Positions 1,428 through 20,839 of a DNA stretch of 32,668 nt are shown in pieces. Position 1 is the first letter of the stretch. Each line of letters starts with the position of its first letter. The notes below the pieces were generated by a model. It did not search any database. It worked only from the letters and a program-made list of their open reading frames with translations, and was not told the origin of the DNA. The DNA is taken from assembly GCA_012718855.1 (NCBI GenBank), contig JAAYBS010000045.1, positions 1 through 32,668 of the forward strand. The letters run 5' to 3'. Source of the stretch: Syntrophomonadaceae bacterium (GTDB taxonomy: Bacteria > Bacillota > Syntrophomonadia > Syntrophomonadales > Syntrophomonadaceae). A program made the position numbers and the translations under genes.

Positions 1428-2915
1428 CTATTTATGTTGGGTAAGGGTACAATTAACAGCTTTTTGCCAGCCCTGAAGTCTTTCCTCACGTTCCGACTCT
1501 GATATAAGCGGACTAAAACAGCGATCCAGCTTACGCATGGTGCGTAGTTGATCAGGATGCTGCCAGAAACCGGACCCCAAACCGGCTAAATATGCTGCCC
1601 CAACGGCAGTAGAATCAGTTATAACTGGACGGTCCACCTCAACATTTAAAATATCTGATTGAAATTGCATAAGAAAATTATTGGCGGATGCGCCTCCGTC
1701 AACATTCAATACTTTTAGAGAAATCCCTGCGTCACCAGTCATTGCCTGCAATACATCGTAAGTCTGATAAGCAATGGACTCTAAAGCTGCCCGGGCAAAA
1801 TGTGCCCGGTTACTTCCGCGGGTAAGACCGGTAATTGTACCCCGCGCATGCATATTCCAATGAGGTGCTCCCATACCTGTAAAAGCTGGTACCAAATAAA
1901 CTCCTTCATTGGAGGCCAGCGATGCGGCCAGAATTTCTGACTCGGCTGAGCTTTTAATTATACCTAATTCATCACGCAACCATTGAATAGCGGCACCGGC
2001 GATAAAAACACTGCCCTCCAAAGCATAGTTAATTTGACCATTTACATTCCAGGCTATAGTAGTTAATAATCCGTGCTGAGATTCAACTGCCTGGCTGCCA
2101 GTATTTAAAAGCAGAAAACAACCGGTTCCATATGTGTTTTTAGCCGCACCAACATCAAAGCAGGTCTGACCGAATAAAGCTGCCTGCTGGTCACCAGCCA
2201 TTCCGGCAATGGGAATTTCAGTACCTAATAAATCCGGATCAGTATAGCCATAAATTTCCGAGGAAGTTCTAACAACGGGTAAAACTGATTCCGGAATATC
2301 AAAGTAATTTAGTATATCTTTATCCCACTTTAATTCATGGATATTATACAGCATAGTTCGTGAAGCATTTGAACAATCGGTAACATGTATCTTTCCGCCG
2401 GTTAGTTTCCATAATAGCCAGGTATCTATGGTACCAAAAATCAATTCGCCCTGTTCCGCTCTGCTTCTGGCGTCGGGAATATTCTCCAGAATCCAGGCTA
2501 CTTTAGTAGCTGAAAAATATGCATCAATAACCAAACCGGTTTTATGGCGAATAATACTTTCCATACCGGCTTTTTTCATCTGTTCACATAGATCAGTAGT
2601 ACGTCGGCATTGCCATACTATGGCATTGCTTACCGGCAAACCGGTATGGCGATCCCATAAAAGGGAAGTCTCACGTTGATTGGTTATTCCTATGGCGTAA
2701 ATATCACGGCTGGTAATATTGGCCTGTAAAATCGCTTGAGTAGCTGTGCTTAGAGTAACTGCCCAAATTTCTTGGGGATCATGTTCAACCCACCCTGGTG
2801 CAGGATAATATTGAGTGAATTCCCGGTAAGCTCTGGAAATTATGTTTCCGGTAGAATCGAGTATTAAAACAGTTGTCCCGGTAGTTCCCTGATCAATGGA
2901 AAGTATATAACGCAC
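1428..2915 (-). CDS. glpK: glycerol kinase
   Basis: 'YILSIDQGTTGTT', 'NQRETSLLWDRHTG', 'GTGCFLLLNTG' (FGGY kinase). The ORF track extends to 2939 with a TTG start; the GTG at 2913-2915 (VRYILSIDQG), behind ggagg, fits known GlpK N-termini better. Confidence 0.93.
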   Translation of the reverse strand: MRYILSIDQGTTGTTVLILDSTGNIISRAYREFTQYYPAPGWVEHDPQEIWAVTLSTATQAILQANITSRDIYAIGITNQRETSLLWDRHTGLPVSNAIVWQCRRTTDLCEQMKKAGMESIIRHKTGLVIDAYFSATKVAWILENIPDARSRAEQGELIFGTIDTWLLWKLTGGKIHVTDCSNASRTMLYNIHELKWDKDILNYFDIPESVLPVVRTSSEIYGYTDPDLLGTEIPIAGMAGDQQAALFGQTCFDVGAAKNTYGTGCFLLLNTGSQAVESQHGLLTTIAWNVNGQINYALEGSVFIAGAAIQWLRDELGIIKSSAESEILAASLASNEGVYLVPAFTGMGAPHWNMHARGTITGLTRGSNRAHFARAALESIAYQTYDVLQAMTGDAGISLKVLNVDGGASANNFLMQFQSDILNVEVDRPVITDSTAVGAAYLAGLGSGFWQHPDQLRTMRKLDRCFSPLISESEREERLQGWQKAVNCTLTQHK

Positions 2916-3111
2916 CTGTAATTTAAGCACCTCCAACAATTAAAATTGTCCTTACAAAAATTATAGTCTTACCTTAAGAGTTTAACCATAGATTCAATCT
3001 GCATAAAAATTCTGAAAGAGTAAACTTCTAAGCAATATATAACGATATAATTATAGAAAGATACGTAATACTGGCAAAGAGAGGGGGATAGCCACCGTGG
3101 TGGCGTAAATA

Positions 3112-3903
3112 ATGAAAATATTCGTATTGTTAGGGCCTTCCGCTGCTGGTAAATCAGCTTTAATGGATTATTTATTACTGAATGATAATGATTTTATAGC
3201 TCCAATTATTTCTTTTACAACCCGACCAATGAAAGCCGGAGAGAAAGTGGGTAGAGAATATTATTATATAAGCAAGGAGACCTATACTGATTATTGTGTA
3301 AAAGGTAAAATTCTCGAAGAAATTACATATTTGGATCATCATTATGGTATTACCTACGATGAAATAGAAAAAGTAAAGCAAGCCGGCAAAAATGGTATTC
3401 TGATTATGAATACCGCCGGGTTAAGAATTCTAAAAGAAAAGCTGGGACCTCAGAATATAGTGAGTATATTTATTTACCGGGATTTGAAAGATATTTTTGA
3501 TACCATTCGCAGTGAAAGCGGAGATGAAACTCAAAAACTAAATCGCATTGAGTTGGCTAAACAGGAATTGAAAGAAATCAGTTCCAGCGACCATGTAGTA
3601 TACAACATTTCTTCTCTGGCAGATGCTTACCGGCAGTTAATTACCATCATTCGGAGAGAGATTAATGCCAAACCGGAGACAACTGTAATAAAGCCAGGAC
3701 AGCGTTATCGGCATTTTAACGATGCAGAGGTTGAGATAATAGATTTAGCATATTATACTGAAGATTATCGCCCCCTGGTAATATACAGGGATGTTGTAAC
3801 CGGCAAAGCTTATGCCCGTCCCTATGAGATATTTTGTGGATATAAGTATTTATCCCGGGAAAAGCGTACGGTTAAGAGATTTGAACTAATAGAATACGAA
3901 TAA
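3112..3903 (+). CDS. guanylate kinase-like P-loop protein fused to a C-terminal DUF1653-like domain
   Basis: N-term 'VLLGPSAAGKSALMDYL' P-loop and 'SFTTRPMKAGEKVGREYYYIS' (guanylate kinase signature); C-term 'PGQRYRHFNDAEVEIIDLAYYTEDYRPLVIYRDVVTGKAYARPYEIFCG' resembles DUF1653. Confidence 0.75.
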   Translation: MKIFVLLGPSAAGKSALMDYLLLNDNDFIAPIISFTTRPMKAGEKVGREYYYISKETYTDYCVKGKILEEITYLDHHYGITYDEIEKVKQAGKNGILIMNTAGLRILKEKLGPQNIVSIFIYRDLKDIFDTIRSESGDETQKLNRIELAKQELKEISSSDHVVYNISSLADAYRQLITIIRREINAKPETTVIKPGQRYRHFNDAEVEIIDLAYYTEDYRPLVIYRDVVTGKAYARPYEIFCGYKYLSREKRTVKRFELIEYE

Positions 3904-3908
3904 GGATA

Positions 3909-5063
3909 GTGATAAATTTGCTGAGTATCCCCTTTAATCGCCAGTATATTACGGGGAAAGAGTTGAATTACATTCAGGATTGTATAGCCCGGGGGAGTTT
4001 AGCGTCAAGTGGATACTATACTGGATTGACTCAGGAGATGTTGGAAAAAACATTAAACTGTCAAAGAGTATTGCTGACCACTTCGGCAACCAGTGCTCTC
4101 GAGCTTGCTATGCTGTCTTTAGATATAAAAGCAGGAGATGAAGTTATTCTTCCATCCTATACGTTTGTTTCAACAGCCAATCCAATATTACTTCGTGGTG
4201 CTCGCCCAATTTTTGCCGAAATTGACCCCGATACACTAACAATTGATATTGATGATGTTGCTCAAAAAATAACTACTAGAACACGGTGCATCATACCGGT
4301 ACACTATTCCGGTGTTTCATGTGATATGGATAAGTTGATATCATTGGCTATTCAGAATAATATACAGATTATGGAGGATGCAGCCCAGGGGGTAGGAGCA
4401 TTTTATAAGCATAAACCGCTGGGCACAATTGGTTGCCTTAGTTGTTATAGTTTTCATGCTACCAAGAACATTGTTAGTGGTGAAGGCGGAGCTTTAATTA
4501 TTAATGATCTTGATGCAGATAAGATATTACAGGTTGAGGCTTATTATGAAAAAGGAACAAATCGCAGACAGTTTTTGCGTGGTGCAGTTGAACGTTATAC
4601 TTGGACTGAAGTTGGCTCCAGTTTCGGCATGTCAGATTTATTGGCAGCCTATTTGTATGCACAACTTGAAAATCTGGAACTGGTCACCTCGTTGCGTAAA
4701 CAAAAGTTTATGATTTATCAACAGGAATTTGCCGCCTGTGAAATAATGGAAAAGTTACAACTCCCCAAATGGTATGATTATTCACAACCAAACTATCATA
4801 TTTATTATATGCTCTGTCCCGACCAATACAAGCGTAATGTTTTGTTGGACCGTCTGAAACAAAAAAACATTGAGGCTACTTTTCACTATATACCATTACA
4901 CAGTTCACCTATGGGATTAAGTCTTGGATATCAGGTTAGCGATCTTCCGATAACAGAAGATATAAGCAGTCGTTTAATTCGATTACCGATATATCCGGAC
5001 CTTACCGAATTGGAACAACAATATGTTATAGATTCGGTCAGGGAAATTGTTGATAGCTGGTAA
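3909..5063 (+). CDS. DegT/DnrJ/EryC1/StrS family PLP-dependent sugar aminotransferase (WecE/ArnB-like)
   Basis: GTG start; 'GDEVILPSYTFVSTANPILLRGARPIFAEIDPDTLTID', 'IMEDAAQGVGAFYKHKPLGTIGCLSCYSFHATKNIVSGEGGAL' (PLP-lysine motif). Confidence 0.92.
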   Translation: MINLLSIPFNRQYITGKELNYIQDCIARGSLASSGYYTGLTQEMLEKTLNCQRVLLTTSATSALELAMLSLDIKAGDEVILPSYTFVSTANPILLRGARPIFAEIDPDTLTIDIDDVAQKITTRTRCIIPVHYSGVSCDMDKLISLAIQNNIQIMEDAAQGVGAFYKHKPLGTIGCLSCYSFHATKNIVSGEGGALIINDLDADKILQVEAYYEKGTNRRQFLRGAVERYTWTEVGSSFGMSDLLAAYLYAQLENLELVTSLRKQKFMIYQQEFAACEIMEKLQLPKWYDYSQPNYHIYYMLCPDQYKRNVLLDRLKQKNIEATFHYIPLHSSPMGLSLGYQVSDLPITEDISSRLIRLPIYPDLTELEQQYVIDSVREIVDSW

Positions 5064-5080
5064 TAAACAAGGAGCATTTA

Positions 5081-5983
5081 ATGAATTCAATATCAGTAGT
5101 TATTCCAGTTTTTAATGGCAGTCATAGCTTATCGGAGTTATATAGTCGTCTGGTTAATATACTTCAACAGATGGCGGTTCCATTTGAGATTATTATGGTG
5201 GATGATGCCAGTAAAGATGATAGTTTTGAAGTCATGCAAAACCTTAGACAGCATGATAAGCGAGTTGGAATTATAAAACTGGAGAAAAATTACGGACAAC
5301 ATGCTGCTACATTATGTGGTTTGGCTCAAAGCCGGGGAGATTATATAATCACCATTGATGATGACTTACAACACCTTCCGGAAGCAATACCGGATTTGAT
5401 GAAGAAAATTACCGAAGGATATGACGCTGTATTTGCAATATTCGAAAACAAACAACATAGCTTTTATCGCAATTTAGGCAGCGATTTTATGAATTTAACT
5501 CTTAATATAATTTTCAATAAACCTCGTTCAGTTCGAACGAGCAGCTATAGGATATTGACGGGTAGATTAGCAAACATTATGAAAGAACATGATCAGGCTA
5601 ATGTTTACCTGGCTGCGTTAATCTTTAAAAACACTTCAAAGGTGGCTAATATAAGCGTTGAACATCAAAAAAGGCAATATGGACAAAGTAATTATAATTA
5701 TTATCGTCTGCTTAAATTAGCCCGTACTTTATTTTATAACTATTCCAATCTGCCGATTTTATTTACATTAATTCTCTGGATAGTTGCTTTCGTTATGTAT
5801 AGATTTGTTAAAATCAATGATTTTTTGAATAGCAGTATCATAGTTATGAGTTTGATTTTGCTCGTTCCAGCCATTATATCCATAAGAGTAATTATTACCT
5901 ATTATAAATTGCGAATACTTGCCAGAAGATTTCCGGCTTACACGATTCACAGTATTGATATGGAGGAAGGTGAGCTGATTTGA
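5081..5983 (+). CDS. family 2 glycosyltransferase, ArnC/dolichol-phosphate-sugar synthase-like, with C-terminal TM helices
   Basis: 'SVVIPVFNGSHSLSELYSRL', 'IIMVDDASKDDSFEVM', 'YIITIDDDLQHLPEAIPDLM'; two hydrophobic C-terminal segments. Confidence 0.9.
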   Translation: MNSISVVIPVFNGSHSLSELYSRLVNILQQMAVPFEIIMVDDASKDDSFEVMQNLRQHDKRVGIIKLEKNYGQHAATLCGLAQSRGDYIITIDDDLQHLPEAIPDLMKKITEGYDAVFAIFENKQHSFYRNLGSDFMNLTLNIIFNKPRSVRTSSYRILTGRLANIMKEHDQANVYLAALIFKNTSKVANISVEHQKRQYGQSNYNYYRLLKLARTLFYNYSNLPILFTLILWIVAFVMYRFVKINDFLNSSIIVMSLILLVPAIISIRVIITYYKLRILARRFPAYTIHSIDMEEGELI

Positions 5984-7260
5984 AACTCTTATGCCTGGGA
6001 GGAGGATTTATGCAGGTAAACGCTATCCGTAAGGCTAAAGACAAGGGCCATACGGTTATCGTATCTGATTACCTGAGTAATCCACCAGGGTCCCAATGGG
6101 CTGATTATTTTGAACAGGTAAGCACTTTTGATATTGAAGCTAATATTGAGGTGGCTAGAAAATATGAAGTGGATAGAGTGTTTACAATTGGTACTGATCA
6201 ACCTGTATATACTGCTGCCTGTGTAGCTGAGGCATGTCAATTGCCACATATAGTAACTGAGTGGTCAGCTCTAAGAGCAACCAATAAAAAATTTATGAAG
6301 CAAGTATTTGATAATAATAATATACCCGGTAGCAAGTATAGATTACTTGACCGGTCTGATTTAAACAACTGGACAGAGCTGTATAAAAAATTGTCAACTT
6401 TACAGTTTCCCGTAGTTGTAAAACCCCTGGATAGTCAGGGGCAAAGAGGAATTTACAAAATACAGGTTCTGAAGCCTGATATCGTTGAATTTATGAATGA
6501 TACATTTTCTTACACCAGGTGTGATGAGATAATAGTAGAAGAGTTCTTCACCGGTGATGAGATAACTGTAAGCGCCTGGGTTCATGGGGATGAATTTAAG
6601 ATACTTATGGTTACAGATCGACCTCTAATTAATATTGAACCACATCTTGGAACTCCTGACGGGCATATTTATCCTTCCATTTACTGGTCTTCACATAAAA
6701 ATGTAATTGAAGAAATCATTAAACAAATTATAGTTGCTTTTAGAATTACCGGTGGACCTCTTTATGTTCAAATGATGATAAACCAGAATTCGGTTCAAGT
6801 GGTGGAAATAGCACTTCGTATTGGTGGGGGACATGAAGAAGAATTAATACCATTAGTGACCGGGTTAGATGCATTGGAACTTTTTATTGAAGAAATCAGC
6901 AACAATGATTTAGATTTTTCAACAGTTCCGCTAATTGATCCTGAAAATATTACCAGATCGGCTATGGTTAAATTCATTGTTGCCGAACCGGGAATCGTAT
7001 CTTTCTGTAAAGAATTATCATCGGTAAAAGCTATGCCGGGGGTAATTAATGCAGGATTTTATAACCCAAACATGGAAAAGATAGAAGAACTAATTAATAG
7101 TACCCGCCGAATTGGATATCTGATTGTTGAAGGAGAAACTGCTCAAGATGTTCAGGATAAAGTAAGAAGTGCTTACCGGCAAATCGAAATTATTGATAAC
7201 CGTGGTAAAAACCTGGTTGTTGACACTGCCAAACATAACAGTTATTACCATACTTATTAA
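5980..7260 (+). CDS. ATP-grasp domain protein (carbamoyl-phosphate-synthase/carboxylase-like ligase fold)
   Basis: TTG start overlapping the upstream stop (TTGA); 'FPVVVKPLDSQGQRGIYKI', 'IIVEEFFTGDEITVSAWVHG', 'VQVVEIALRIGGGHEEELIPLVTG'. Confidence 0.85.
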   Translation: MKLLCLGGGFMQVNAIRKAKDKGHTVIVSDYLSNPPGSQWADYFEQVSTFDIEANIEVARKYEVDRVFTIGTDQPVYTAACVAEACQLPHIVTEWSALRATNKKFMKQVFDNNNIPGSKYRLLDRSDLNNWTELYKKLSTLQFPVVVKPLDSQGQRGIYKIQVLKPDIVEFMNDTFSYTRCDEIIVEEFFTGDEITVSAWVHGDEFKILMVTDRPLINIEPHLGTPDGHIYPSIYWSSHKNVIEEIIKQIIVAFRITGGPLYVQMMINQNSVQVVEIALRIGGGHEEELIPLVTGLDALELFIEEISNNDLDFSTVPLIDPENITRSAMVKFIVAEPGIVSFCKELSSVKAMPGVINAGFYNPNMEKIEELINSTRRIGYLIVEGETAQDVQDKVRSAYRQIEIIDNRGKNLVVDTAKHNSYYHTY

Positions 7261-7279
7261 TTTAAAAGGAGTATTAAAT

Positions 7280-8326
7280 ATGAGGCTGAAATTACCACTT
7301 ATTTTACTTATTATTTCTTTGTTATTAATCTCCACGGGAGGCTGCCAAACAGAAAATACTACCCCCAAATCAACTACCGGAGGTCAGGAGGTTACAGTTG
7401 CAATTCAGTATGGGTTGGCCTATGCACCATTACAAATAGTAAAGGAGAAAAAACTTATTGAAAAATATCTTCCTGGTGCACAGGTGAATTGGAAACAGTT
7501 GGGGACCGGACCGGTTATTCGCGATGCCATGGTAGCGGGAGAAGTTGATATCGGTTTTATGGGGGTGTCACCATTTTTAATTGGTTGGGACAAGGGAGCC
7601 GAATGGAAAATTTGTATAGCCTCCGGCAGTCAACCACTTACATTATTAACTTATAAAGATAATATTAAGACTATAGAAGATTTTAAACCAGGAGATAAAA
7701 TTGCAACCCCTGCTTTAGCCAGTATTCAGCATATGCTCTTAGCCATGGAAGCTGAGAAAAAGATGGGAGATGCCCATGCATTGGACAATCTATTGCTTTC
7801 AGTTACACATCCCGATGCCATGGCGGGGTTATTAGGGAAAAAGGATGTAACTGCTCATTTTTCATCTCCCCCATATTTATTTAAAGAACTGGATGATCCA
7901 ACTATAAAAACGGTATTGGAAGGTGAGGATGCTTTTGGCGGAGAATTTACTTTTATCTTTGGAGTTGCAACCAACCAATTTCACGATAATAATCCGGCGG
8001 CGTACAGTGCTTTTATAAGTGCTTTTAATGAAGCCGTTGCATTTATTAATGATTCTCCTCATGAAGCAGCTGCAATTTTGGCACCACAGTACAATCTCAG
8101 TGAAGAAGAAACTTATCGTTATTTAACCTGGGAAGGGACCAACTATTGTACTACGCCATATGGCTTAATGGGATTTGTAGAATTTATGCATAAGCAGGCT
8201 TTCATTAGCCGTAAACCTGAACATTTATCTGAGATTGTTTTTGAAAATGTTGAGGCAGCTATCGGTAAACGTTATGGTGAAGCATCAGTTATTGAACAAA
8301 TTCAGGTAAGAGAACATGCTCAATAA
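7280..8326 (+). CDS. ABC transporter substrate-binding lipoprotein, SsuA/TauA/NMT1 type
   Basis: ATG at 7280 after aaaagga; signal 'MRLKLPLILLIISLLLISTGGC' with lipobox-like Cys; 'VTVAIQYGLAYAPLQIVKEKKLIEK', 'GEVDIGFMGVSPFLIGW'. The track's start at 7169 lies inside the upstream gene. Confidence 0.85.
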   Translation: MRLKLPLILLIISLLLISTGGCQTENTTPKSTTGGQEVTVAIQYGLAYAPLQIVKEKKLIEKYLPGAQVNWKQLGTGPVIRDAMVAGEVDIGFMGVSPFLIGWDKGAEWKICIASGSQPLTLLTYKDNIKTIEDFKPGDKIATPALASIQHMLLAMEAEKKMGDAHALDNLLLSVTHPDAMAGLLGKKDVTAHFSSPPYLFKELDDPTIKTVLEGEDAFGGEFTFIFGVATNQFHDNNPAAYSAFISAFNEAVAFINDSPHEAAAILAPQYNLSEEETYRYLTWEGTNYCTTPYGLMGFVEFMHKQAFISRKPEHLSEIVFENVEAAIGKRYGEASVIEQIQVREHAQ

Positions 8327-9113
8327 TAATAAGTCTGAATCAATATATAAAACTATTATTCAAAAAGGCTTTATTCTCTTAAGCCTTATGTTTTTGTGGG
8401 AATTAATCGCCCGAAGCGGTATTTTTAATGAATTATTATTTCCTCGTTTCTCAACCATAGCACTCTCTTTTTTTCAGCAGGTACAAAATGGATATTTGAT
8501 TGAAATCACCTTAGTTTCCTTATCTTTAATATTTAAAGGCTTGCTAATTTCATTAATAATTGCATTATTATTAAGCTTTCTGGCTATGATGGGTAATTTT
8601 TTTCATAATCTGGTTGAAGTATTGAATTCAATTTTCCATCCTTTGCCTGGGATTGCGCTGCTGCCGGTAGCCATGTTATGGTTTGGTCTCAGTGAAGCCA
8701 GTATAATTTTCATCATCGCTCATTCCGTAATCTGGCCTATGGTTATCAGTTTTTTGACCGGACTTAAATCAATACCCCGTATTAATATAGAGGTAGGTCA
8801 GAATATAGGTTTAAAAGGTCCTGCTTTAATATGGGGAGTAATGCTTCCAGCAGCCTCTCCCTATATTTTGTCGGGGATTAAAATCGGTTGGGCCAGAGCC
8901 TGGCGTTCTGCTATAGCTGCTGAAATGGTGTTTGGGGCTGTTGGAACTGCCGGGGGACTTGGATGGCATATTTTTAAAACCCGTTATGATTTCGATATTG
9001 TAGGTACTTTTGCTGCACTGCTTACTATTATGGTAGTGGGTATAGTGGTAGAAGAGTTGTTTTTTAATAGCATCGAAAACCGTACTATAAAAAGATGGAA
9101 TATGATTGTTTAA
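8316..9113 (+). CDS. ABC transporter permease, SsuC/TauC type
   Basis: Multi-TM; EAA loop-like segment 'INIEVGQNIGLKGPALIWGVMLPAASPYILSGIKIGWARAW'; overlaps the SBP gene end. Confidence 0.88.
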   Translation: MLNNNKSESIYKTIIQKGFILLSLMFLWELIARSGIFNELLFPRFSTIALSFFQQVQNGYLIEITLVSLSLIFKGLLISLIIALLLSFLAMMGNFFHNLVEVLNSIFHPLPGIALLPVAMLWFGLSEASIIFIIAHSVIWPMVISFLTGLKSIPRINIEVGQNIGLKGPALIWGVMLPAASPYILSGIKIGWARAWRSAIAAEMVFGAVGTAGGLGWHIFKTRYDFDIVGTFAALLTIMVVGIVVEELFFNSIENRTIKRWNMIV

Positions 9114-9128
9114 AGGAGTATAGCGGTA

Positions 9129-9869
9129 TTGTTATATATCGACAATGTTGGTAAAAGCTTTATAAACAATGGCATTTCGGTAAACGTTTTAAGTAATATC
9201 ACATTTCGGGTTTTATCAGGGGAATTTTTCTGTCTGCTGGGACCATCAGGTTCCGGGAAAACAACCTTGCTCAGATGTATCGGAGGATATGAGAAAGTCA
9301 CCTCCGGTACGATAAAATTAAATAACCATACGGTATCTGCTCCGGGTATTGATCGAATCATGGTATTTCAGGGATTCGACCAATTATTTGCCTGGAAAAC
9401 GGTATCAGGTAATATCGAATATCCTTTAAAAGTTAATGGTATCAGTCGGGTTGAGCGTAGAGAACGAACAGAAAAGTACTTATCCCTGGTAGGTCTTCAT
9501 AATTATGCGAATTATTATCCCTTTCAACTTTCCGGGGGGATGAAACAGCGTACTGCCATTGCCAGAGCTTTAGCACTTGAACCTCCCTTATTGCTAATGG
9601 ATGAACCCTTTGGAAATCTGGATGCTATAACCCGTCATACTTTACAACGGGAATTATTGCGAATAAAAGATGAAACTAATACTACCGTTCTTTTTGTTAC
9701 GCATGATATTGATGAGGCTATTACCCTGGGGGACAGGATTTTAATATTTTCCCGTCAGGGTACAGTAAAAAGCCAAATTGAAAACAACCTGAACCGGCCG
9801 AGAATACCGAGCATGCCTGGTTATGCTTCATTATGGGCTAATATTTATGAGACCCTGGGGGAAGGATGA
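9129..9869 (+). CDS. ABC transporter ATP-binding protein, SsuB/TauB type
   Basis: Walker A 'GPSGSGKTTLL', signature 'LSGGMKQRTAIARALA', Walker B 'LLLMDEPFGNLD'; TTG start. Confidence 0.93.
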   Translation: MLYIDNVGKSFINNGISVNVLSNITFRVLSGEFFCLLGPSGSGKTTLLRCIGGYEKVTSGTIKLNNHTVSAPGIDRIMVFQGFDQLFAWKTVSGNIEYPLKVNGISRVERRERTEKYLSLVGLHNYANYYPFQLSGGMKQRTAIARALALEPPLLLMDEPFGNLDAITRHTLQRELLRIKDETNTTVLFVTHDIDEAITLGDRILIFSRQGTVKSQIENNLNRPRIPSMPGYASLWANIYETLGEG

Positions 9870-9881
9870 TATTTTCAGTTT

Positions 9882-10853
9882 ATGAATTCTACGTTTAAAG
9901 GAGTCCTGAAACTTCTATTTACAGTAATACTGTTAATAGTTGTATTGTATAAGGTGAATTTGGGGACTCTTAAAGCAGTCATTCTGACAATCAACATTTA
10001 CTATTTAACTGCAATCATTGGATTATCACTGCTGGTCTTTTTAACTGCTGCTATCCGTTCGCTCACCTTTATCAGAGGCATGGGAGTAAAATCGATTAAT
10101 TTAATTGATGCATATAAATATTATCTGGTAGCTGCATTTTATAATCAGTTTTTACCCACTACTATGGGGGGAGATGTAGTTCGTATTTATATGATTCAAA
10201 AAAAGTCAGCTGATGTATTTCAGGCAAGTTCTTCAGTTGTTACTGAGCGTTTGATCGGATTAGTCACCATAATATTCATATCGTTTATTGCTACTTTTTT
10301 AATTCCCTATAACCCTGACTTGATAATCTTTAGGCATATGCTGATGGTTTTGTTGTTATTAGCTGCAGGTTTCATAATAATCATTTTCCTGCCTGCAGCT
10401 TTAACATTTTTTAATAGAGTATTTATGACTATCGGTTTTAAAAAAGTTAATCATTTTGTTCAGCAGTTTATTACAGCTTTACATGACTATCGGGAAAAAC
10501 CTGGTTTGCTTATATGGGGCTTTGTTCTAACCATGGTCTATGATTTGGGCGATATTACTGTTGTTTATTTATTGGGTTTACTTATAGGTATTGAGATTGC
10601 CTTCTGCTACTATTTATTATTTATTCCCCTGGTTCATATTGTAAGCATCATACCCATATCACTTAATGGCGTGGGATTAAGAGAAAATACTATGGTATAT
10701 TTATTTGGACTGGTTGGGGTAAGTTCATCATTAGCCTTTTTATTATCTATCCTGATTTATCTGGACAGACTTATTAAGGCTATAATCGGTGCTTTATGGA
10801 TCACGGCAGAAAACGGAAAGCTAACTATAATAAAGGGAGATAAAAATGCTTAA
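9882..10853 (+). CDS. lysylphosphatidylglycerol synthase TM region/UPF0104 (YbhN/AglD-like) flippase-like membrane protein
   Basis: 'YKYYLVAAFYNQFLPTTMGGDVVRIYMIQ' and 'SIIPISLNGVGLRENTMVYLFGLVG' are hallmarks of the family. Confidence 0.87.
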   Translation: MNSTFKGVLKLLFTVILLIVVLYKVNLGTLKAVILTINIYYLTAIIGLSLLVFLTAAIRSLTFIRGMGVKSINLIDAYKYYLVAAFYNQFLPTTMGGDVVRIYMIQKKSADVFQASSSVVTERLIGLVTIIFISFIATFLIPYNPDLIIFRHMLMVLLLLAAGFIIIIFLPAALTFFNRVFMTIGFKKVNHFVQQFITALHDYREKPGLLIWGFVLTMVYDLGDITVVYLLGLLIGIEIAFCYYLLFIPLVHIVSIIPISLNGVGLRENTMVYLFGLVGVSSSLAFLLSILIYLDRLIKAIIGALWITAENGKLTIIKGDKNA

Positions 10854-12813
10854 TAAATATAATTATCATCTCCTGGTTCTGGTTATATTTATAAACCTGT
10901 TGGTTTTATGGGCTTATGGACTATCAGCCATAAATATAATTAAGATATTATTAACTCTGATGTTTGCAACCTTTATTCCCGGCCTTATTATACTGAAACT
11001 GCTTAAAATTACTGCTGATTCAGCCTATTATTTTCTGTTGGCATCAATAATGGGGATAACAGTTAACTGTATAACCTTCATGTTATTATCCAGCATCGAT
11101 ATGCTGTTTTTAATTTATCCATTGATAGTAGTAACTATATTTATTTATTGTTATCAGGGGTATTTAAAGGAAGATTATAAATTATTAGCCAGAAGCTTTA
11201 AAGAACTTCCTTTCACTACGTTGGCTAATCTATCTTTCGGATCTTTTCTCTTGTTGGCACTCATTATAATATTTTATTATCAACCTAATGTACTACCCGG
11301 AAATGAAGCCGTAGTCTATCATGTAGATTATCCCTGGCATATAGGGAATATTGCTGAAATTTTACACCACTGGTATCCTCAGGACCCCCGTTTGGCAGGC
11401 AATCCATTTCATTACCATATTTTTTGTTATGTCTATATGGCCTGTTTATCTTTTATAAGTAAAATTAGCATTCCCATCATCTATTTAAGAGTCTATATTA
11501 TTGTATTGCTCTATTTATTAATGGGCGGAGCTTATTTTGCCGCCAGCAGACTTTTTAATAGTCGCAGAGCCGGGGTAGTACATGTATATATTACCTTTTT
11601 CCTCGGTACGGCACTGTTATCATGGCCACATAATGTTTTATTACGTAACTTCTTTATTAGCCCGACTTTCTTACTGGCGATGGTATTTCTTTTCCCGCTT
11701 ATATCAGAGATGCTGAGATACTTGTCTAATAACTCCAGGGGGCAATTAATACTGGTATGGCTGCTATCATTTATTATAAGTGGTGCAAAGGGCAGTTTTT
11801 TTCCGATAATATGGTCTGCATTGGCTATAGCAGGATTTTATTGCTATGCTGTGAGACAACCAATCATAAATATAGTTAAACTCATGTTTAGCAGTTTAAC
11901 TGCCTTTTTAATTGTCTATGTCTTAATCTTTCAAGGGACAGGCAGTGAAGGGATTAACATTTTTCCATTGGAGATACTGTATACTACTGCTTTTTACAAA
12001 TATTTCAGTCAGATAACGGTTTTTCATGAGACAATTTTTATACTGGGTATCTTTCTAATTTACCTGCTGTTGTTTTTTAGTTTTCGTATCTTCGCCTTTA
12101 TTAATTTATGTCGCAAAAACCGTTCAGGTTTAGATAAAATTACTACGATATTCCTGGTTTCGATAATCTTTATGGCTTCTATTTCGGGATATTTATTATC
12201 CTATCGCGGAACTTCACAGTACTATTTTTTGTTTGTCGGCTTTGCAGTGTTAAACCTGGTTTCAGCAGGTTATTTAACCAATAGTTTTAAAGCAGGTAAG
12301 TCGTTAATATTAAAAATAGTATTAATAATATTTATCGTGTTTTCATCTGTTGATACCGTAATAACCATTAATTTTCAACAATATATTAATTATAAATTTG
12401 ATTCTATACGCAACAAACCACTTACTCCTTCAATGTATGCAGGTTTGAATTATCTTCGTTTGCATTCTCCTGTCAATTCAATTGTTGCCGGTTATCGTTC
12501 CTTCTGGTTGAATGATGAAGATCCCCGTTATTTCTATTATTCAGCCTTTGCAGAACGAAGGTTCCTGGTCGAAGGTTGGGCATATATGAGTCCTGAATAC
12601 CAGATGACAGCTCAGGAAAGATATGAAGATATTAAAAAACTATTTTCAACCCGTGATGCTAAAATTGCTGAAATAATAATTAAGCAACACAATATCGATT
12701 ATATTCTGGTTGATAAAGGGCATAAACAAAAATTGAGATTTCAGTGGCAGAATATACTCGATAATGTCTACTCAAATGAGGAAATAGAAATTTATCAATA
12801 CACACCAAAATAA
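10846..12813 (+). CDS. large multi-TM membrane protein, probable GT-C-type glycosyltransferase
   Basis: 655 aa, many TM segments; luminal-loop-like motif 'YHVDYPWHIGNIAEILHHWYPQDPRLAGNPFHYHIF'; soluble C-terminal tail. Confidence 0.65.
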   Translation: MLNKYNYHLLVLVIFINLLVLWAYGLSAINIIKILLTLMFATFIPGLIILKLLKITADSAYYFLLASIMGITVNCITFMLLSSIDMLFLIYPLIVVTIFIYCYQGYLKEDYKLLARSFKELPFTTLANLSFGSFLLLALIIIFYYQPNVLPGNEAVVYHVDYPWHIGNIAEILHHWYPQDPRLAGNPFHYHIFCYVYMACLSFISKISIPIIYLRVYIIVLLYLLMGGAYFAASRLFNSRRAGVVHVYITFFLGTALLSWPHNVLLRNFFISPTFLLAMVFLFPLISEMLRYLSNNSRGQLILVWLLSFIISGAKGSFFPIIWSALAIAGFYCYAVRQPIINIVKLMFSSLTAFLIVYVLIFQGTGSEGINIFPLEILYTTAFYKYFSQITVFHETIFILGIFLIYLLLFFSFRIFAFINLCRKNRSGLDKITTIFLVSIIFMASISGYLLSYRGTSQYYFLFVGFAVLNLVSAGYLTNSFKAGKSLILKIVLIIFIVFSSVDTVITINFQQYINYKFDSIRNKPLTPSMYAGLNYLRLHSPVNSIVAGYRSFWLNDEDPRYFYYSAFAERRFLVEGWAYMSPEYQMTAQERYEDIKKLFSTRDAKIAEIIIKQHNIDYILVDKGHKQKLRFQWQNILDNVYSNEEIEIYQYTPK

Positions 12814-13042
12814 TATATATTTGCCAATCTTTATATTGCCCTCAATGTCTTTCTTCATTATTTATCCTTAATTAGTTGCAAAAAGCATTCAATGCACATG
12901 TTAAAGGCCCTGCTTATACCGTGATAACTAACTTATATAATTAACAGGCATACTTTAATGTTATAGTTTAATTAATAGAGTGTTGAATAGGGGTCATGAA
13001 CTAAATAGCCGGTCTAAATTAAGCGCATAAGGAGGGATAAAT

Positions 13043-15262
13043 ATGCGGGTTTCAAGGCGTCAGTTTTTAAAATATGGCGGCGGCGGTATTGCTGTTGTTG
13101 CTGGTGCCGGATTAATTGGTAATGCAATCTTTGATAAAGATTCTGATGATACAAATGACAAACTTGAAGTAGTTTATAAACACGGAGTTTGTGGAATATG
13201 TGAATTAAATTGTGCTATGACCGGCAAAATCGAAAATGGCCGTCTGGTTAAACTGGAGGGTAAATCCGTTGATCAACACAGTCGGGGTTCACTTTGTGCC
13301 AAAGGAAACTCTGGAATAAATATGCTTTATGATCCTGACCGTCTAAAGTCTCCACTGGTAAAGACTGTATCTGGCAGAGTACCCGGACAGGACCCCCGCT
13401 GGAAAAAAATCTCCTGGGATGAAGGAATACGTCAGGCTTCCGCAGCTATACAGAAAGCTATTGATGAATATGGCCCTGAATCAGTAATTTGGATTGGTCA
13501 TCATAAAGGGGTAGATTTTTTAAATGCCATAGGCAGTCCCAACAATATTACTCATCAATCAACCTGTAATAATGTTCGCCAGTTAGCTACCCAGCTGACT
13601 TTAGGCGCAGGTAATTATGTACCCGATTTTGAGCATAGCAAATATATACTTTGTTTTGGCTGGGATCAATTGGGAAAAGGGAAAAACTCTTTTGCCCGCG
13701 GTCCTATAATGGGTAAAAACGAAAACGGAGCTAAACTGGTAGTTTTTGATCCCCGACTTTCCACTACTGCAGCTAAAGCTGACGAGTGGTTACCGATTCG
13801 CCCGGGAACAGATTTAGCAGTTATATTAGCTATGTTGAATGTTATAACTACTGAGGACCGCGTAAACAGGGAATATGTTGAAAATTATGTTCATGGTTAT
13901 GAGGAACTCAAGGAGGAAGTAAAAAGCTATACTCCTGAATGGGCAGCTAAAATAAGTGACATTAAAGCTGAAGATATTCGTCGAATTGCCAGGGAGTTCA
14001 GCGGAGGCTGTCCAGCTGTAATACCTATTCATAAAAGAGAAGCTATCCAGTCACATCCGGGCGGATTTGAAATGGTTCGAGCCTGTCTGGCAATGATGGC
14101 AATAACTGGGAATATTGAACGCGTTGGAGGAGCGTTATTACCACGCGTTGCACCGATCAGTTTTCCATCTGCTCCCGGTAAACCGGAACCCATGGCTGAG
14201 ACACGCCGTGTTGATGGAGGACATTTATTCCCGCTTTCAATTACTGCACCTCTTAGAGGTCCGGGGCTGTATCAAAGTGTACCGGATATGATCCTGGCTG
14301 ATGAACCTTACCCGGTGAAAGTGGCTATTGTTTACGCTCAATCATTGCAGAGTATGCCTAATCCCGAAAAATGGGTAAAAGCTTTTGAAAAGTTGGATTA
14401 CATTATTAACATTAATATTTATCCGGATGAGATGGCTACAATTGCAGATTTAGTATTACCTGAATCTACTTATCTGGAGATGTCTGCAGTATCAGTAAGA
14501 ATTACTAATGCCCGCTATCCTCAGATTGCTCTGGCAGAGCCTATGATAAAGACTTTGCACAATACTAAGTCCGGAGATGAAATTAAATACCTGATTGCCC
14601 AAGAGATGGGATTGAAAAAATATATGGCACCTGTAGGAGATAAAGTGCTGGACAGCAAGATAAGAAGGTATAATATAACCTTCCAGGAGGCACTAAAAAA
14701 AGGTGGCATAATCAGTGGCAATAAGGGGTTTAAGCCATTAAACCTGACAGAGTTAAAGACAGAAAGCGGAAAAATTCAATTATTATCTCCCAAACTTCAG
14801 GAAATGGGATATCATCCTTTGCCCTGGTTTGATGAGAATTGGGTAATTAATACCAAAGCAAATGATGAGTTTTATATGGTAACTACCCGGCCACCTACTC
14901 ATCGTCATGCCAAGACTCATAATATGGAGTGGTTGCAGGAGATTACTCCTAAAGGGGTAGTATATATGAATACCAGCAAGGCTAAAAAACTGGGTATTAA
15001 TAATGGAGACACTATTGAAATAAGCTCTCAATTTGGCAAAGGAACAACTGAAGTATCACTGACAGAGGGTATTCGTCCTGATACGATTTGCTTCCCACAT
15101 GGATTCGGTCAAAAATCACCGTTTTTAAAACTTTCTTACCAGAATGGCATGAATGATGGTGATGTAATGCCTGCAGTTGCCAAGGAGGTCAATATTGAGT
15201 TAAATGATCCTACCGGTGCCTGTTTGGATTGCTTTATGACCGTTAGAGTAAGAAAGGTGTGA
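13043..15262 (+). CDS. molybdopterin oxidoreductase catalytic subunit, PsrA/PhsA-like, Tat-exported
   Basis: Tat signal 'SRRQFLKYGGGG'; [4Fe-4S] CX2CX3CX27C ('CGICELNC...SLCAKG'); candidate Mo-ligand region 'THQSTCNN'; RBS aggaggg. Confidence 0.88.
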   Translation: MRVSRRQFLKYGGGGIAVVAGAGLIGNAIFDKDSDDTNDKLEVVYKHGVCGICELNCAMTGKIENGRLVKLEGKSVDQHSRGSLCAKGNSGINMLYDPDRLKSPLVKTVSGRVPGQDPRWKKISWDEGIRQASAAIQKAIDEYGPESVIWIGHHKGVDFLNAIGSPNNITHQSTCNNVRQLATQLTLGAGNYVPDFEHSKYILCFGWDQLGKGKNSFARGPIMGKNENGAKLVVFDPRLSTTAAKADEWLPIRPGTDLAVILAMLNVITTEDRVNREYVENYVHGYEELKEEVKSYTPEWAAKISDIKAEDIRRIAREFSGGCPAVIPIHKREAIQSHPGGFEMVRACLAMMAITGNIERVGGALLPRVAPISFPSAPGKPEPMAETRRVDGGHLFPLSITAPLRGPGLYQSVPDMILADEPYPVKVAIVYAQSLQSMPNPEKWVKAFEKLDYIININIYPDEMATIADLVLPESTYLEMSAVSVRITNARYPQIALAEPMIKTLHNTKSGDEIKYLIAQEMGLKKYMAPVGDKVLDSKIRRYNITFQEALKKGGIISGNKGFKPLNLTELKTESGKIQLLSPKLQEMGYHPLPWFDENWVINTKANDEFYMVTTRPPTHRHAKTHNMEWLQEITPKGVVYMNTSKAKKLGINNGDTIEISSQFGKGTTEVSLTEGIRPDTICFPHGFGQKSPFLKLSYQNGMNDGDVMPAVAKEVNIELNDPTGACLDCFMTVRVRKV

Positions 15263-15873
15263 TGAAAATGACACCAGTCGAACTAAACGCTAACTTGTTC
15301 TGGTCAGCCCGGGAAATGTTCAAATTTCCTGACAAACAAATACTGACCGATTATAAATACGACTTACAGGCATTCCTGCAATGGGGAGCAAACTCCAGGA
15401 TTATCGGTGCTGAAGAAATACTGAATCTTCTGAGAGAAGGCCAACTCGATTGGGAAGAGATTCAAATTGATTATACCAGTTTGTTTATTAACAGTTTCCC
15501 ACAGGCTAAAGCACATGCTTTTGCCGGTTGGTACCTCGGGGATAAAGAATATTATGGTGCTCAGGAAGCTATAACGAGAGAGTTTTATAACAATTATGGG
15601 GTTATTCTGGATGAGAATACCAATCTGCCCGCTGATCACATCCTGGTTCAAACTGATTTTATTGCCATGATGATCGAAGAGTATGTTGATAAAGGCGATA
15701 TAAAATATCTGGAGGCAATCAGTGAATTTTGTAACCAGCATATGAAACTGTGGTTGGAGCCATTTCTATATGCCTGTGAATTGCATGCTCAAACCCAATA
15801 TTATCGAGTCATAGCAGCTGTATTTAGAGAAATGTTTAACCAGTTGGTAATAGATTTAGGGGAGGTGGCATAG
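15262..15873 (+). CDS. TorD/DmsD-family molybdoenzyme maturation chaperone
   Basis: 'IDYTSLFINSFPQAKAHAFAGWYLGDKEYYG', 'LPADHILVQTDFIAMMIEEY' typical of TorD family. Start could be GTG 15259, ATG 15262 or ATG 15268. Confidence 0.82.
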   Translation: MKMTPVELNANLFWSAREMFKFPDKQILTDYKYDLQAFLQWGANSRIIGAEEILNLLREGQLDWEEIQIDYTSLFINSFPQAKAHAFAGWYLGDKEYYGAQEAITREFYNNYGVILDENTNLPADHILVQTDFIAMMIEEYVDKGDIKYLEAISEFCNQHMKLWLEPFLYACELHAQTQYYRVIAAVFREMFNQLVIDLGEVA

Positions 15874-15874
15874 C

Positions 15875-16441
15875 ATGGCTAAAGTTAAACCGGCACGTTG
15901 GGGAAAAATTGTTGATTTGAATAAGTGTGTTGGTTGTCATGCCTGTAGTGTGGCATGTGTTGCTGAAAATAAAATAAAGCATGGCAAACATAGAACTAGA
16001 ATTGTAGAACACGAAGAAGGTACATTCCCCAATGTTTATCGTTATACGGAAAAATGGTCCTGCAATCATTGTCAAAATGCTCCGTGTGTTGATGCTTGTC
16101 CTACTGAGGCTTCACATTACACTGAATGGGGAACAGTTGAAGTAAAACCGGAGCTGTGTATCGGTTGTGGTTATTGCGTATTGGCCTGTCCTTATCGCGT
16201 ACGAATGATGAATGACCGACGCGATGGTGGACTTCCGGAAAAATGCACCTTATGTATTCATCGTCTTGAAAAAGGGGAAAAGCCTGCCTGTGAAACAACT
16301 TGTATTGCAGGTGCAATTATAACAGGCAATCTGGATGACCCCCATAGTGAAATTAATGAATGGATGGCCAAAGGAGCAGTTGAGCGTAGGCCCGATTTAT
16401 TAACTCATCCCAATGTATTTATTATTCCTTATAGGAGGTGA
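15875..16441 (+). CDS. 4Fe-4S ferredoxin electron-transfer subunit, PsrB/PhsB/NrfC-like
   Basis: Four Cys clusters: CVGCHACSVAC, CNHCQNAPCVDACP, CIGCGYCVLACP, CTLCIHRL...CETTC. Confidence 0.93.
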   Translation: MAKVKPARWGKIVDLNKCVGCHACSVACVAENKIKHGKHRTRIVEHEEGTFPNVYRYTEKWSCNHCQNAPCVDACPTEASHYTEWGTVEVKPELCIGCGYCVLACPYRVRMMNDRRDGGLPEKCTLCIHRLEKGEKPACETTCIAGAIITGNLDDPHSEINEWMAKGAVERRPDLLTHPNVFIIPYRR

Positions 16442-16446
16442 GCATA

Positions 16447-17391
16447 ATGGAACATTTATTTACCTGGAATTATCTAATTGCAATTTATCTTTTTACTGCC
16501 GGGCTTTCATCCGGGTCAGCTATTGTAGGAGCTATTGGTGATATCCTTGAAAATATGGATGATCGAATAAAACGGCTGGCAACCTATCTGGCGCCCTTTC
16601 CGGTTATGCTGGGATTGGTGGCACTGGTTGCTGATCTGCATCGTCCTTGGTATTTCTATAAGGTACTTATTAATTATCATATTACCTCAGTAATGTCATG
16701 GGGTGCATTCTTTCTGCTGGTATTTCCTATTATTGCAGTAATATTTGCTGTTATGGTGTATTTCAACTATAAGGGTATATTACGAAAACTGTTTGCCTGG
16801 TTGGAACTGGTACTTGGTCTGGCAATAGGAATTTATGCCGGTTTGCTTTTGGCTGCTATTTATAATAATCCGGTATGGAGTAATCCTTTAATAGCCTTTT
16901 TATTCTTTGTTTCAGCTATTTCAACCGGAATTTGTATGATAATTCTGGGGGGCAAATTATGGGATCAGGTTGAAGGTTTAATTAGAAAAATTATACCGGG
17001 CAGGTTCTTACCTGAAGTTAGATTATTAAATCTTGATCATCAGGCTATTCGCAGCCTCATTGGGGTAGATGCAGTTATTATAATTGTTGAGTTAATGGTT
17101 ATATCTACGCTGATAATCAGTTATATGCTACGTCCAACCGGTGATGTTGCACTGGGTGCATTTATAACTGGTGGATATTATTTATCATTCTGGATTGTCG
17201 TAGTTCTGTCAGGATTATGCTTACCGCTATTACTAGGTATAATGGAACTAAGAGATCGTTTTACGCATCGTACTAATGTAATAGTATCCTGGGTTGAACC
17301 TGTATTAGTCATAATTGGTGGATTTATGCTTCGCTGGGTGGTAGTATATGGAGGACAATTAGTGTATCCTATTCTGACTTACTATAAATAG
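16447..17391 (+). CDS. NrfD/PsrC-type polytopic membrane anchor subunit
   Basis: Multi-TM; 'LFTAGLSSGSAIVGAIGDILE', 'LVALVADLHRPWYFYKVLINYHITSVMSWGAFFL'. ATG at 16447 has aggaggtg upstream; the track's 16438 GTG is within the RBS. Confidence 0.9.
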   Translation: MEHLFTWNYLIAIYLFTAGLSSGSAIVGAIGDILENMDDRIKRLATYLAPFPVMLGLVALVADLHRPWYFYKVLINYHITSVMSWGAFFLLVFPIIAVIFAVMVYFNYKGILRKLFAWLELVLGLAIGIYAGLLLAAIYNNPVWSNPLIAFLFFVSAISTGICMIILGGKLWDQVEGLIRKIIPGRFLPEVRLLNLDHQAIRSLIGVDAVIIIVELMVISTLIISYMLRPTGDVALGAFITGGYYLSFWIVVVLSGLCLPLLLGIMELRDRFTHRTNVIVSWVEPVLVIIGGFMLRWVVVYGGQLVYPILTYYK

Positions 17392-17444
17392 ACCAATCTT
17401 TTCAGGATAACTGAGGCGGCAAATATAGAAATATTTATTCAATA

Positions 17445-17475
17445 TAAATGAGGTGTCAGGGTGGCACCTCATTTA
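17445..17475. terminator. bidirectional stem-loop between convergent nrfD-like and lysR-like genes
   Basis: Perfect 11-bp inverted repeat TAAATGAGGTG-TCAGGGTGG-CACCTCATTTA with a 9-nt loop and AT-rich flanks; overlaps the lysR stop codon. Confidence 0.75.
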
Positions 17476-18383
17476 TTCCATGAAAAGCCGCTTCTTTTCG
17501 GATGAGTTAAAAAACTTATAAACTTTTCGGCCATCATTGAGGGCTCTTCATCATCACGGTATATCAGATTAATATCCACACTTAAATTATCAATTTCTTT
17601 AATTTTTACAATAGTTAATGAACCATTTGCCAATTCGTTTTCAACTGCAATTTTAGGTACGATTGATATTCCCATTCCACTCTCAATCGCCGCTTTTACT
17701 GAATGAATGCTGTTCATTTCAGAGACCAGATTAAATTCTTCCAGATTATAACCTGCCTTAGCAAAGGTATCATTAATAACATCGTAAACAGCAGCACCTT
17801 TTTCCCTCGTCACAAATGGTTTGCTCTTAAGCTCTTGCAGGCTGATCTTTTTTCGTATTCGCATATTATCATTAGTCGGAAAAACAAGTACTAGCGGTAT
17901 GCTGTCCAGATGAAAGACGGTTAAACCTGGTGTTATAACTGCTCCTTCTACAACTGCCAAATCGAGTTCTCGGTTTAAAACTTTGTTAATGGTTTCTTTG
18001 CTGTTGGAAATATTAAGTTTAATATTAGTCTCCGGATATTTTAACTTAAAGGCGCGCAAACTTGAGGGCATGGCAAAATTACCAGCAGTACAACTGGCGC
18101 CAATTGTCAAATTGGGAGGGGTTAAGTGAGTTAACTGGTGCAATTCATTATGCATATCCTGATGCAAAGCTATAAACTTGTCTGCATACTCAACAAAAAT
18201 TTTACCAGCTTCAGTTAACGTTACTCCATGTGTAGTACGGTGAAAAAATTTTACTCTGTAATAATCCTCCATGGCTTGAACTTTGCTGCTAATTGCTGGT
18301 TGGGATAGATGTAATAGTTTGGCTGCCTTTGAAAAGCTCCTGGTTTCAGCTATTACTGGAATTATTTCAAATTGACTTATCAT
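17469..18383 (-). CDS. LysR family transcriptional regulator (CysL/YeiE-like)
   Basis: HTH 'FSKAAKLLHLSQPAISSKVQAMEDYYRVKFFHRTTHGVTLTEAG'; LysR substrate-binding domain 'ESGMGISIVPKIAV'. Confidence 0.93.
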   Translation of the reverse strand: MISQFEIIPVIAETRSFSKAAKLLHLSQPAISSKVQAMEDYYRVKFFHRTTHGVTLTEAGKIFVEYADKFIALHQDMHNELHQLTHLTPPNLTIGASCTAGNFAMPSSLRAFKLKYPETNIKLNISNSKETINKVLNRELDLAVVEGAVITPGLTVFHLDSIPLVLVFPTNDNMRIRKKISLQELKSKPFVTREKGAAVYDVINDTFAKAGYNLEEFNLVSEMNSIHSVKAAIESGMGISIVPKIAVENELANGSLTIVKIKEIDNLSVDINLIYRDDEEPSMMAEKFISFLTHPKRSGFSWNK

Positions 18384-18457
18384 TTATATACCCCCGGGCA
18401 TTTCTTTGTTAACATAAATATTTTTAGTTTTATCGAACCTTTATATTTAAATATAGC

Positions 18458-18477
18458 AGATATAAATGCATATATCT
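18458..18477. promoter_or_regulatory. candidate LysR-type operator in the lysR/topB divergent region
   Basis: AGATATA-AATGCA-TATATCT perfect 7-bp inverted repeat, 74 nt upstream of the lysR start; fits an ATA-N-TAT LysR-like pattern. Confidence 0.35.
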
Positions 18478-18584
18478 ATTTCCTTAAAGTTATTGTCTAT
18501 TCGCAGTATATATTATTAATAACTATATAATCCGCTATAATGTAATAAGTTTGATTGCAGTTTTTAATATAAAGAGGTGAAAAC

Positions 18585-20642: not shown

Positions 20643-20839
20643 CCACTGGTCTTGGAAAGCCCCTATGTGGCCACTACTGCCAGAAGGCATAAAGGCCACA
20701 GAAGAACTATCCCCATGTGGCTCCTAAAGCAACAAAATGCCGCTTTGGCTTCCCTTTCCGAACAGCCGATCCGGCTTGCAAAGCGTGAAAGAGATCGCTC
20801 GTACACGGCATGATGCTTCGATAGAAGCGATGATGGGGT

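Follow-up and report, generated by a model that had tools for sequence, protein, structure and literature searches.

A predicted Arn-like amino-sugar cassette that recurs beside sulfur genes in Syntrophomonadaceae and other bacteria

What would a bacterium make with a run of genes that recalls the Arn pathway, which decorates lipid A with 4-amino-4-deoxy-L-arabinose (L-Ara4N), and that carries an ATP-grasp ligase where Arn has ArnA and ArnD? The question is raised by a contig of a Syntrophomonadaceae bacterium (JAAYBS010000045.1, our C15), which is analysed here whole, as a window of 32,668 nucleotides, and belongs to a genome of 2.09 Mb in 231 contigs that is 82.7% complete. An earlier note, made from the sequence alone, read nine co-directional open reading frames (ORFs) at 3112-12813 as a single Arn-like operon. 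What appears to be new is that sulfur genes are nearly always found next to the cassette, which in most cases has an importer of its own. On balance it probably encodes an Arn-like pathway for an amino sugar carried on undecaprenyl phosphate, one that has evolved as a module within thiosulfate and polysulfide loci.

The nine same-strand ORFs are present with the starts, stops and overlaps first reported, separated by 5, 17, -4, 19, -11, 15, 12 and -8 bp if the substrate-binding protein (SBP) starts at 7280, its most likely start (AGGAG then ATG), and not at 7169. Pfam and NCBIfam agree with the DegT, GT2, ATP-grasp and YbhN/UPF0104 identities proposed for four of them. The operon claim stands for eight genes from 3909 onwards and falls for the guanylate-kinase-like gene at 3112, which also occurs in genomes without the cassette. 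The cassette is thus a predicted eight-gene operon at 3909-12813:

3909-5063, forward strand: DegT aminotransferase of the WecE type (dTDP-4-amino-4,6-dideoxygalactose transaminase, where dTDP is deoxythymidine diphosphate; NF008687 and PDB profile search)
5081-5983, forward strand: predicted ArnC-like undecaprenyl-phosphate sugar transferase of family GT2, with C-terminal hydrophobic segments (NF007986 and PDB profile search)
5980-7260, forward strand: ATP-grasp ligase with a LAL_C2 domain, proposed to N-acylate the amino sugar (Pfam GARS_A, ATP-grasp_4 and LAL_C2)
7280-8326, forward strand: lipoprotein SBP of an SsuA/TauA-like ABC importer (NMT1_2, SsuA_fam; best PDB match SsuA 2x26, 3e-12)
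8316-9113, forward strand: importer permease (BPD_transp_1; nearest NCBIfam models SaoP, NtrB and TauC, all under cut-off)
9129-9869, forward strand: importer ATPase (ABC_tran; nearest NCBIfam models SaoA, NtrCD and TauB, all under cut-off)
9882-10853, forward strand: YbhN/UPF0104 (LPG_synthase_TM) membrane protein, a possible flippase (PF03706 1e-35, TIGR00374 60 bits)
10846-12813, forward strand: large membrane protein of 655 amino acids (aa) in the GT-C slot, with an HVDYPWHIGN motif at residue 159 and no Pfam or NCBIfam match

Three of the original nine ORFs (7280-9869) form a complete ABC importer, which the earlier account overlooked and which is among the most conserved parts of the cassette. 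That conservation emerges when GTDB contigs are searched with an alignment of the ATP-grasp. Of 258 relatives found, the top 80, a set thus selected by likeness to the window, were named as loci; they span Bacillota, Spirochaetota, Chloroflexota, Calditrichota and Nitrospirota. The synteny on which the first reading had staked itself is kept in most of the 80: the order (RmlB-RmlA)-DegT-GT2-ATP-grasp-SBP-permease-ATPase is found in Halanaerobiales, Clostridia, Eubacteriaceae and others, and occurs whole or in part in Spirochaetota, Chloroflexota and Calditrichota. Among the 51 loci flanked sufficiently on each side, ATP-grasp is present in 51, DegT in 43 and GT2 as a separate gene in 43, with 6 more in which it is fused to the ATP-grasp. 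The importer is nearly as regular (SBP 43/51, permease 41/51, ATPase 38/51) and in most loci directly follows the ATP-grasp, and the GT-C slot is occupied by a PMT-like protein in 47 and by a protein of the window's type in 3 more. In an even sample of 399 genomes of the phylum, from 268 genera, the ATP-grasp is found in 21 genomes and 15 genera at a threshold of E <= 1e-70. Nine sampled places (L178-L180 and L183-L188) have DegT, GT2, ATP-grasp, importer and GT-C-slot protein together; two borderline ATP-grasp matches (L181, L182) have unrelated surroundings. The 80 loci and the 21 sampled genomes together rule out chance.

The same 51 loci reveal the sulfur context that was missing from the first account. 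Sulfur genes adjoin most loci: rhodanese-family proteins are found in 47 and YeeE/YedE transporters in 39. A LysR regulator occurs in 43, thioredoxin reductase-like proteins in 24 and RmlB in 17. Around 17 loci of more distant ATP-grasp paralogues, SBP, permease, PMT, YeeE and rhodanese are each found in none. At one locus (L035) the flanks hold YeeE/YedE halves, LysR, two rhodanese lipoproteins, another YeeE/YedE and a coenzyme A (CoA)-disulfide reductase; SoxT proteins, which are YeeE-like, serve a characterised bacterium as sulfur importers (PMC11582611). Both Thermosyntropha genomes place the cassette beside a LysR gene, a double-rhodanese protein with a lipoprotein-type signal and NrfD, FeS and molybdopterin subunits, in another order than the window.

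Two further features of these neighbourhoods are recorded here in their own right. The thioredoxin-reductase-like proteins (family F4, 29 loci) recur near the cassette, one of them (L106, 18122-19339) fused to a thioredoxin domain. In a spirochaete locus (L080, 7021-8985), the ABC genes are followed at once by a single protein in which SelD-like, Cys-rich and YedF/TusA-like segments can be made out by eye, hinting at a selenium link.

Where does the unit end? Not at 12813, as had been supposed: the evolutionary unit continues through a Phs operon and a LysR gene.

3112-3903, forward strand: fusion of a guanylate-kinase-like protein with DUF1653, outside the cassette though 5 bp upstream; also in G001 (90%), G004, G012 and others that have no cassette
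3891-18569, no strand: presence/absence island; a sister-species contig (L137) joins window 2359-3890 directly to 18570-19887 (blastn 84% and 89%)
13043-17391, forward strand: thiosulfate/polysulfide reductase operon with a PhsA-like protein, NarJ-like chaperone, FeS subunit and NrfD (Pfam), within the island
17469-18383, reverse strand: LysR regulator (NF040786 219 bits, cut-off 250); a homologue flanks the cassette in Thermosyntropha

The sister-species contig (L137, contig C59 of G001) reads GlpK - GMPK - topoisomerase. By blastn its positions 1-1545 match window 2359-3890 at 84%, and 1618-2935 match 18570-19887 at 89%, so that a 14.7-kb block is present in the window and absent from the sister species. 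The block contains the eight-gene cassette, the PhsA-type thiosulfate reductase operon and the convergent LysR gene. The rest of G001, which is about 80% complete, yielded no close PhsA. The PhsA-like protein scores 444 bits with NF012032, under cut-off, and the LysR protein is 49-51% identical to the Thermosyntropha copies. G+C content is 36% in the cassette and 41% in both the Phs operon and the flanks. A promoter and terminator scan was uninformative, its matches being no more numerous than in shuffled sequence.

The guanylate-kinase-like gene was considered as a cassette member and rejected, since the cassette is missing from the GlpK-GMPK-TopB stretch of the sister species. The copy in congeneric G001 is 90% identical and those in many family members, several of them without the cassette, are ~48-59% identical; the protein is kept across the family, and several genomes have a second guanylate kinase homologue as well. 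Beyond the island, at 20737-21268, two overlapping opposite-strand ORFs (101 and 142 aa) lie unannotated in a local G+C peak (~48%).

What might the enzymes do? The aminotransferase passes the WecE-type equivalog cut-off (NF008687, 482 bits against 375) and falls just under that of the subfamily model TIGR02379 (414 against 435). Its best matches in the PDB profile search are WecE (4piw/6blg, E 1e-164), with ArnB at 2e-64, and the ArnB model scores 221 bits against 482 for the WecE type. Lys186, within SFHATKN, is invariant in four aligned sequences. By homology, it would make dTDP-4-amino-4,6-dideoxygalactose (dTDP-Fuc4N), and rmlB-rmlA lie directly upstream of the cassette in both Thermosyntropha genomes. 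The GT2 has ArnC as its best NCBIfam model (NF007986, 144 bits, cut-off 529) and as its best PDB match (9hwj, 2e-55), followed by GtrB (1e-38) and DPMS (3e-29); ArnC is thus its nearest family, though not at equivalog level. Its motifs DDD and RxYGxSNY are invariant.

The ATP-grasp belongs with Thermosyntropha and Syntrophomonas (Syntrophomonadaceae) as its nearest named relatives, and its PDB relatives are the uncharacterised 4dim and the L-amino acid ligases 4wd3 and 3vot. Pfam matches and profile alignments to the latter two bear out the ATP-grasp fold residues and the LAL_C2 domain, which is present in 30 of 34 members, and the metal positions are an invariant Gln264 at the first and Glu276 at the second. 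In a tree, cassette ATP-grasps split from nine paralogues (94/82); L026 and L099 form long branches at the base. GT2 and ATP-grasp form a single polypeptide in eight loci, which ties the ligase to lipid loading. Within the reading we favour, the ATP-grasp is proposed to acylate the 4-amino sugar. Elsewhere, in L142 and L145, DegT, GT2, an EamA-type protein and an ATP-grasp paralogue cluster without sulfur genes; these belong to a wider group of lipid-linked amino-sugar clusters, and an ATP-grasp in such a cluster is therefore not confined to sulfur loci.

The presumed flippase varies. YbhN had been counted as a component of the pathway; it is not conserved across loci, is not at the corresponding place in Thermosyntropha, and could at most serve as a flippase in particular lineages. 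The window's cassette has it in place of an ArnE/F-like EamA pair, which is present in spirochaetes, beside the GT2 in four of their loci, and in a family that we label f14. In f14 the operon order is DegT-GT-C-GT2-ATP-grasp-EamA-EamA-SBP-permease-ATPase (G140); G102 has the same order with an opposite-strand ORF inserted, making these two the complete sets, and in G227 one EamA is recognised. As far as gene content can tell, the f14 operons are the closest analogue of Arn.

The GT-C slot is filled by three protein families. The window's 655-aa protein has orthologues (40-42% identical) at the same place in two Thermosyntropha genomes, and no homologues outside Syntrophomonadaceae were found in the 399 phylum genomes or the GTDB contig scan. 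The region of its DxPW motif aligns weakly to the PMT-like family (E 0.067). That second family, which fills the slot of most other loci, is non-orthologous to the first, ~520 aa long and usually on the opposite strand, closing the cassette. Its model (pLDDT 92, the predicted local distance difference test) has a GT-C fold resembling ArnT (5ezm, template modelling score 0.60) and also oligosaccharyltransferases. Profile searches of the PDB with both families gave nothing useful and no sequence match to ArnT. The third family, in f14, has a GLDFTDTGF motif and a weak PMT_2 match. Together, the ArnC-nearest GT2, the GT2-ATP-grasp fusions, the conserved synteny, the GT-C fold of the slot protein elsewhere and the EamA pairs of some lineages sustain the Arn-like logic first proposed.

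The importer may indicate which acid is attached. The lipobox Cys of its SBP is invariant in 28 sequences, and SsuA_fam is matched by 28 of the 28 binding proteins tested, the window's under cut-off (93 bits against 163.5; taurine model 35 against 304). Around the ATP-grasp, three supply arrangements are seen. Most loci have the SsuA/TauA-like importer. A DASS anion symporter directly follows the ATP-grasp in L085, and a gene of equal length stands there in L093. In L099, a Nitrospirota metagenome-assembled genome, positions 4228-8915 hold in a row an XcbC-like lyase (416 bits against 575), the ATP-grasp, a NadB/FrdA-like flavoprotein and a ComA phosphosulfolactate synthase (257 against 280), adjoining DegT, RmlB, GT2 and an EamA gene. 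ComA and XcbC convert phosphoenolpyruvate and sulfite to sulfoacrylate, whose reduction would give 3-sulfopropionate. Taken together, the three arrangements suggest, but do not prove, a small sulfonated carboxylate as the acyl group. Four loci (L040, L052, L056 and L062) also contain a second, more distant NMT1-like ABC importer (SBP ~22-25% identical), in some of them beside a 565-aa protein that is probably like the L035 CoA-disulfide reductase/rhodanese.

These parts can be arranged into a putative pathway. RmlA and RmlB would make dTDP-4-keto-6-deoxyglucose, which the WecE-type enzyme would aminate to dTDP-Fuc4N, and the ArnC-type GT2 would load Fuc4N onto undecaprenyl phosphate. Working with the GT2, the ATP-grasp would acylate the 4-amino group with a carboxylate, a step that stands in for formylation and deformylation by ArnA and ArnD; the acid, plausibly a small sulfonated carboxylate, would be brought in by the SsuA/TauA-like importer. 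A flippase (the EamA pair in some lineages, perhaps YbhN in the window) would bring the sugar on its lipid to the outer face, and the GT-C protein would pass it to a cell-surface acceptor.

Is this simply Arn? The two would have in common a 4-keto-sugar aminotransferase, a GT2 nearest to ArnC and predicted to act on undecaprenyl phosphate, a putative GT-C transferase, an EamA pair in some lineages and a 4-amino sugar changed at its nitrogen. However, the cassette uses the WecE-type dTDP-Fuc4N route whereas Arn uses the uridine diphosphate (UDP)-linked Ara4N, and it has an ATP-grasp in place of ArnA/ArnD, a dedicated ABC importer, a sulfur locus, a flippase that varies, slot proteins without a detectable ArnT sequence match in the PDB search, and a distribution mostly in Bacillota. 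Neither the ArnA UDP-glucuronic acid decarboxylase/formyltransferase nor the ArnD deformylase is found among cassette or annotated flanking genes. As judged from homology, the cassette works like Arn but is not Arn itself. The RmlA-RmlB-WecE route to dTDP-4-amino-4,6-dideoxygalactose is that of enterobacterial common antigen, in which WecD acetylation and WecF follow and the sugar sits in a pyrophosphate-linked trisaccharide; the cassette differs in its ArnC-type GT2 and ATP-grasp. The importer shares family and three-gene make-up with SsuABC/TauABC, but scores under their cut-offs, has a lipoprotein SBP and a link to a glycan pathway, and has no recognised desulfonation genes among the annotated flanks. 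ComA and an XcbC-like lyase flanking the ATP-grasp recall the bacterial coenzyme M pathway, but the pair occurs in one locus only and not in the window. No description of this gene combination was found in the open-access papers searched.

Several observations weigh against the proposed pathway. The last ORF of the window is placed with GT-C proteins by slot, motif and hydrophobicity only; it has no family match, and its AlphaFold2 model, built from three sequences, is unusable (pLDDT 39). The window's genome, at its present completeness, yielded no close RmlB (best 31%), leaving the supply of dTDP-Fuc4N unproven there, and Acetobacterium has its DegT elsewhere in the genome. The SBP is missing from the next three genes in 14 of 79 loci, the ComA evidence comes from a single long-branched locus (L099), and no published biochemistry was found for the cassette ATP-grasp group.

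Could the acid be something else? The sulfonated version of the pathway, in which the ATP-grasp would N-acylate Fuc4N with a sulfo-acid (for example 3-sulfopropionate or sulfoacetate), either imported or made through ComA, and the sugar would be displayed on the surface within the thiosulfate/polysulfide machinery, is tentative and, taken whole, rather unlikely. It competes with the somewhat unlikely reading that the ATP-grasp adds an ordinary amino or hydroxy acid to make a general envelope decoration, while the importer is merely co-regulated and, within the same sulfur regulon, scavenges sulfonates as a sulfur source. The L-amino acid ligases as nearest named structures and the frequency of LAL_C2 suit an ordinary acid, as do the absence of the importer from some loci and the LysR and sulfur genes around the cassette; yet this reading sits poorly with flanks in which no desulfonation genes are recognised, with an importer placed directly after the ATP-grasp in most loci, with the anion symporter in its place in L085 and with the sulfonate-making genes that flank the L099 ATP-grasp.

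The frequent rhodaneses and YeeE/YedE transporters, with the thioredoxin reductase-like and CoA-disulfide reductase genes, would also fit a surface thiol relay. The ATP-grasp would link the amino sugar to cysteine or to some other thiol acid (compare mycothiol and bacillithiol), and the thiol would take sulfane sulfur from rhodanese lipoproteins and hand it to YeeE. We regard this as improbable: a cysteine substrate is without sequence evidence, and the importer family and ComA genes indicate sulfonates over thiols. Finally, an ordinary surface-glycan cluster might hitch-hike beside sulfur genes to which it is functionally unlinked, as the related clusters of L142 and L145 allow. That is very hard to credit when the association holds in most of the 51 loci, across several phyla, differing gene orders and three unlike GT-C-slot families, and when cassette and Phs operon are present or absent jointly in the window's genus.

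The Arn-like pathway as a module of sulfur loci would join two fields that do not meet in searchable papers, and would give an uncharacterised ATP-grasp group a concrete substrate class. The cassette occurs in cultured organisms, among them Thermosyntropha lipolytica, Halanaerobium and Acetobacterium species. If the sulfonated amino sugar is real, it would represent a class of sulfonated glycoconjugate not known before, and one devoted to sulfur metabolism. So frequent a tie to rhodaneses and to transporters of sulfur suggests that, in anaerobes, alteration of the envelope or of its sulfur-handling proteins belongs to thiosulfate or polysulfide metabolism.

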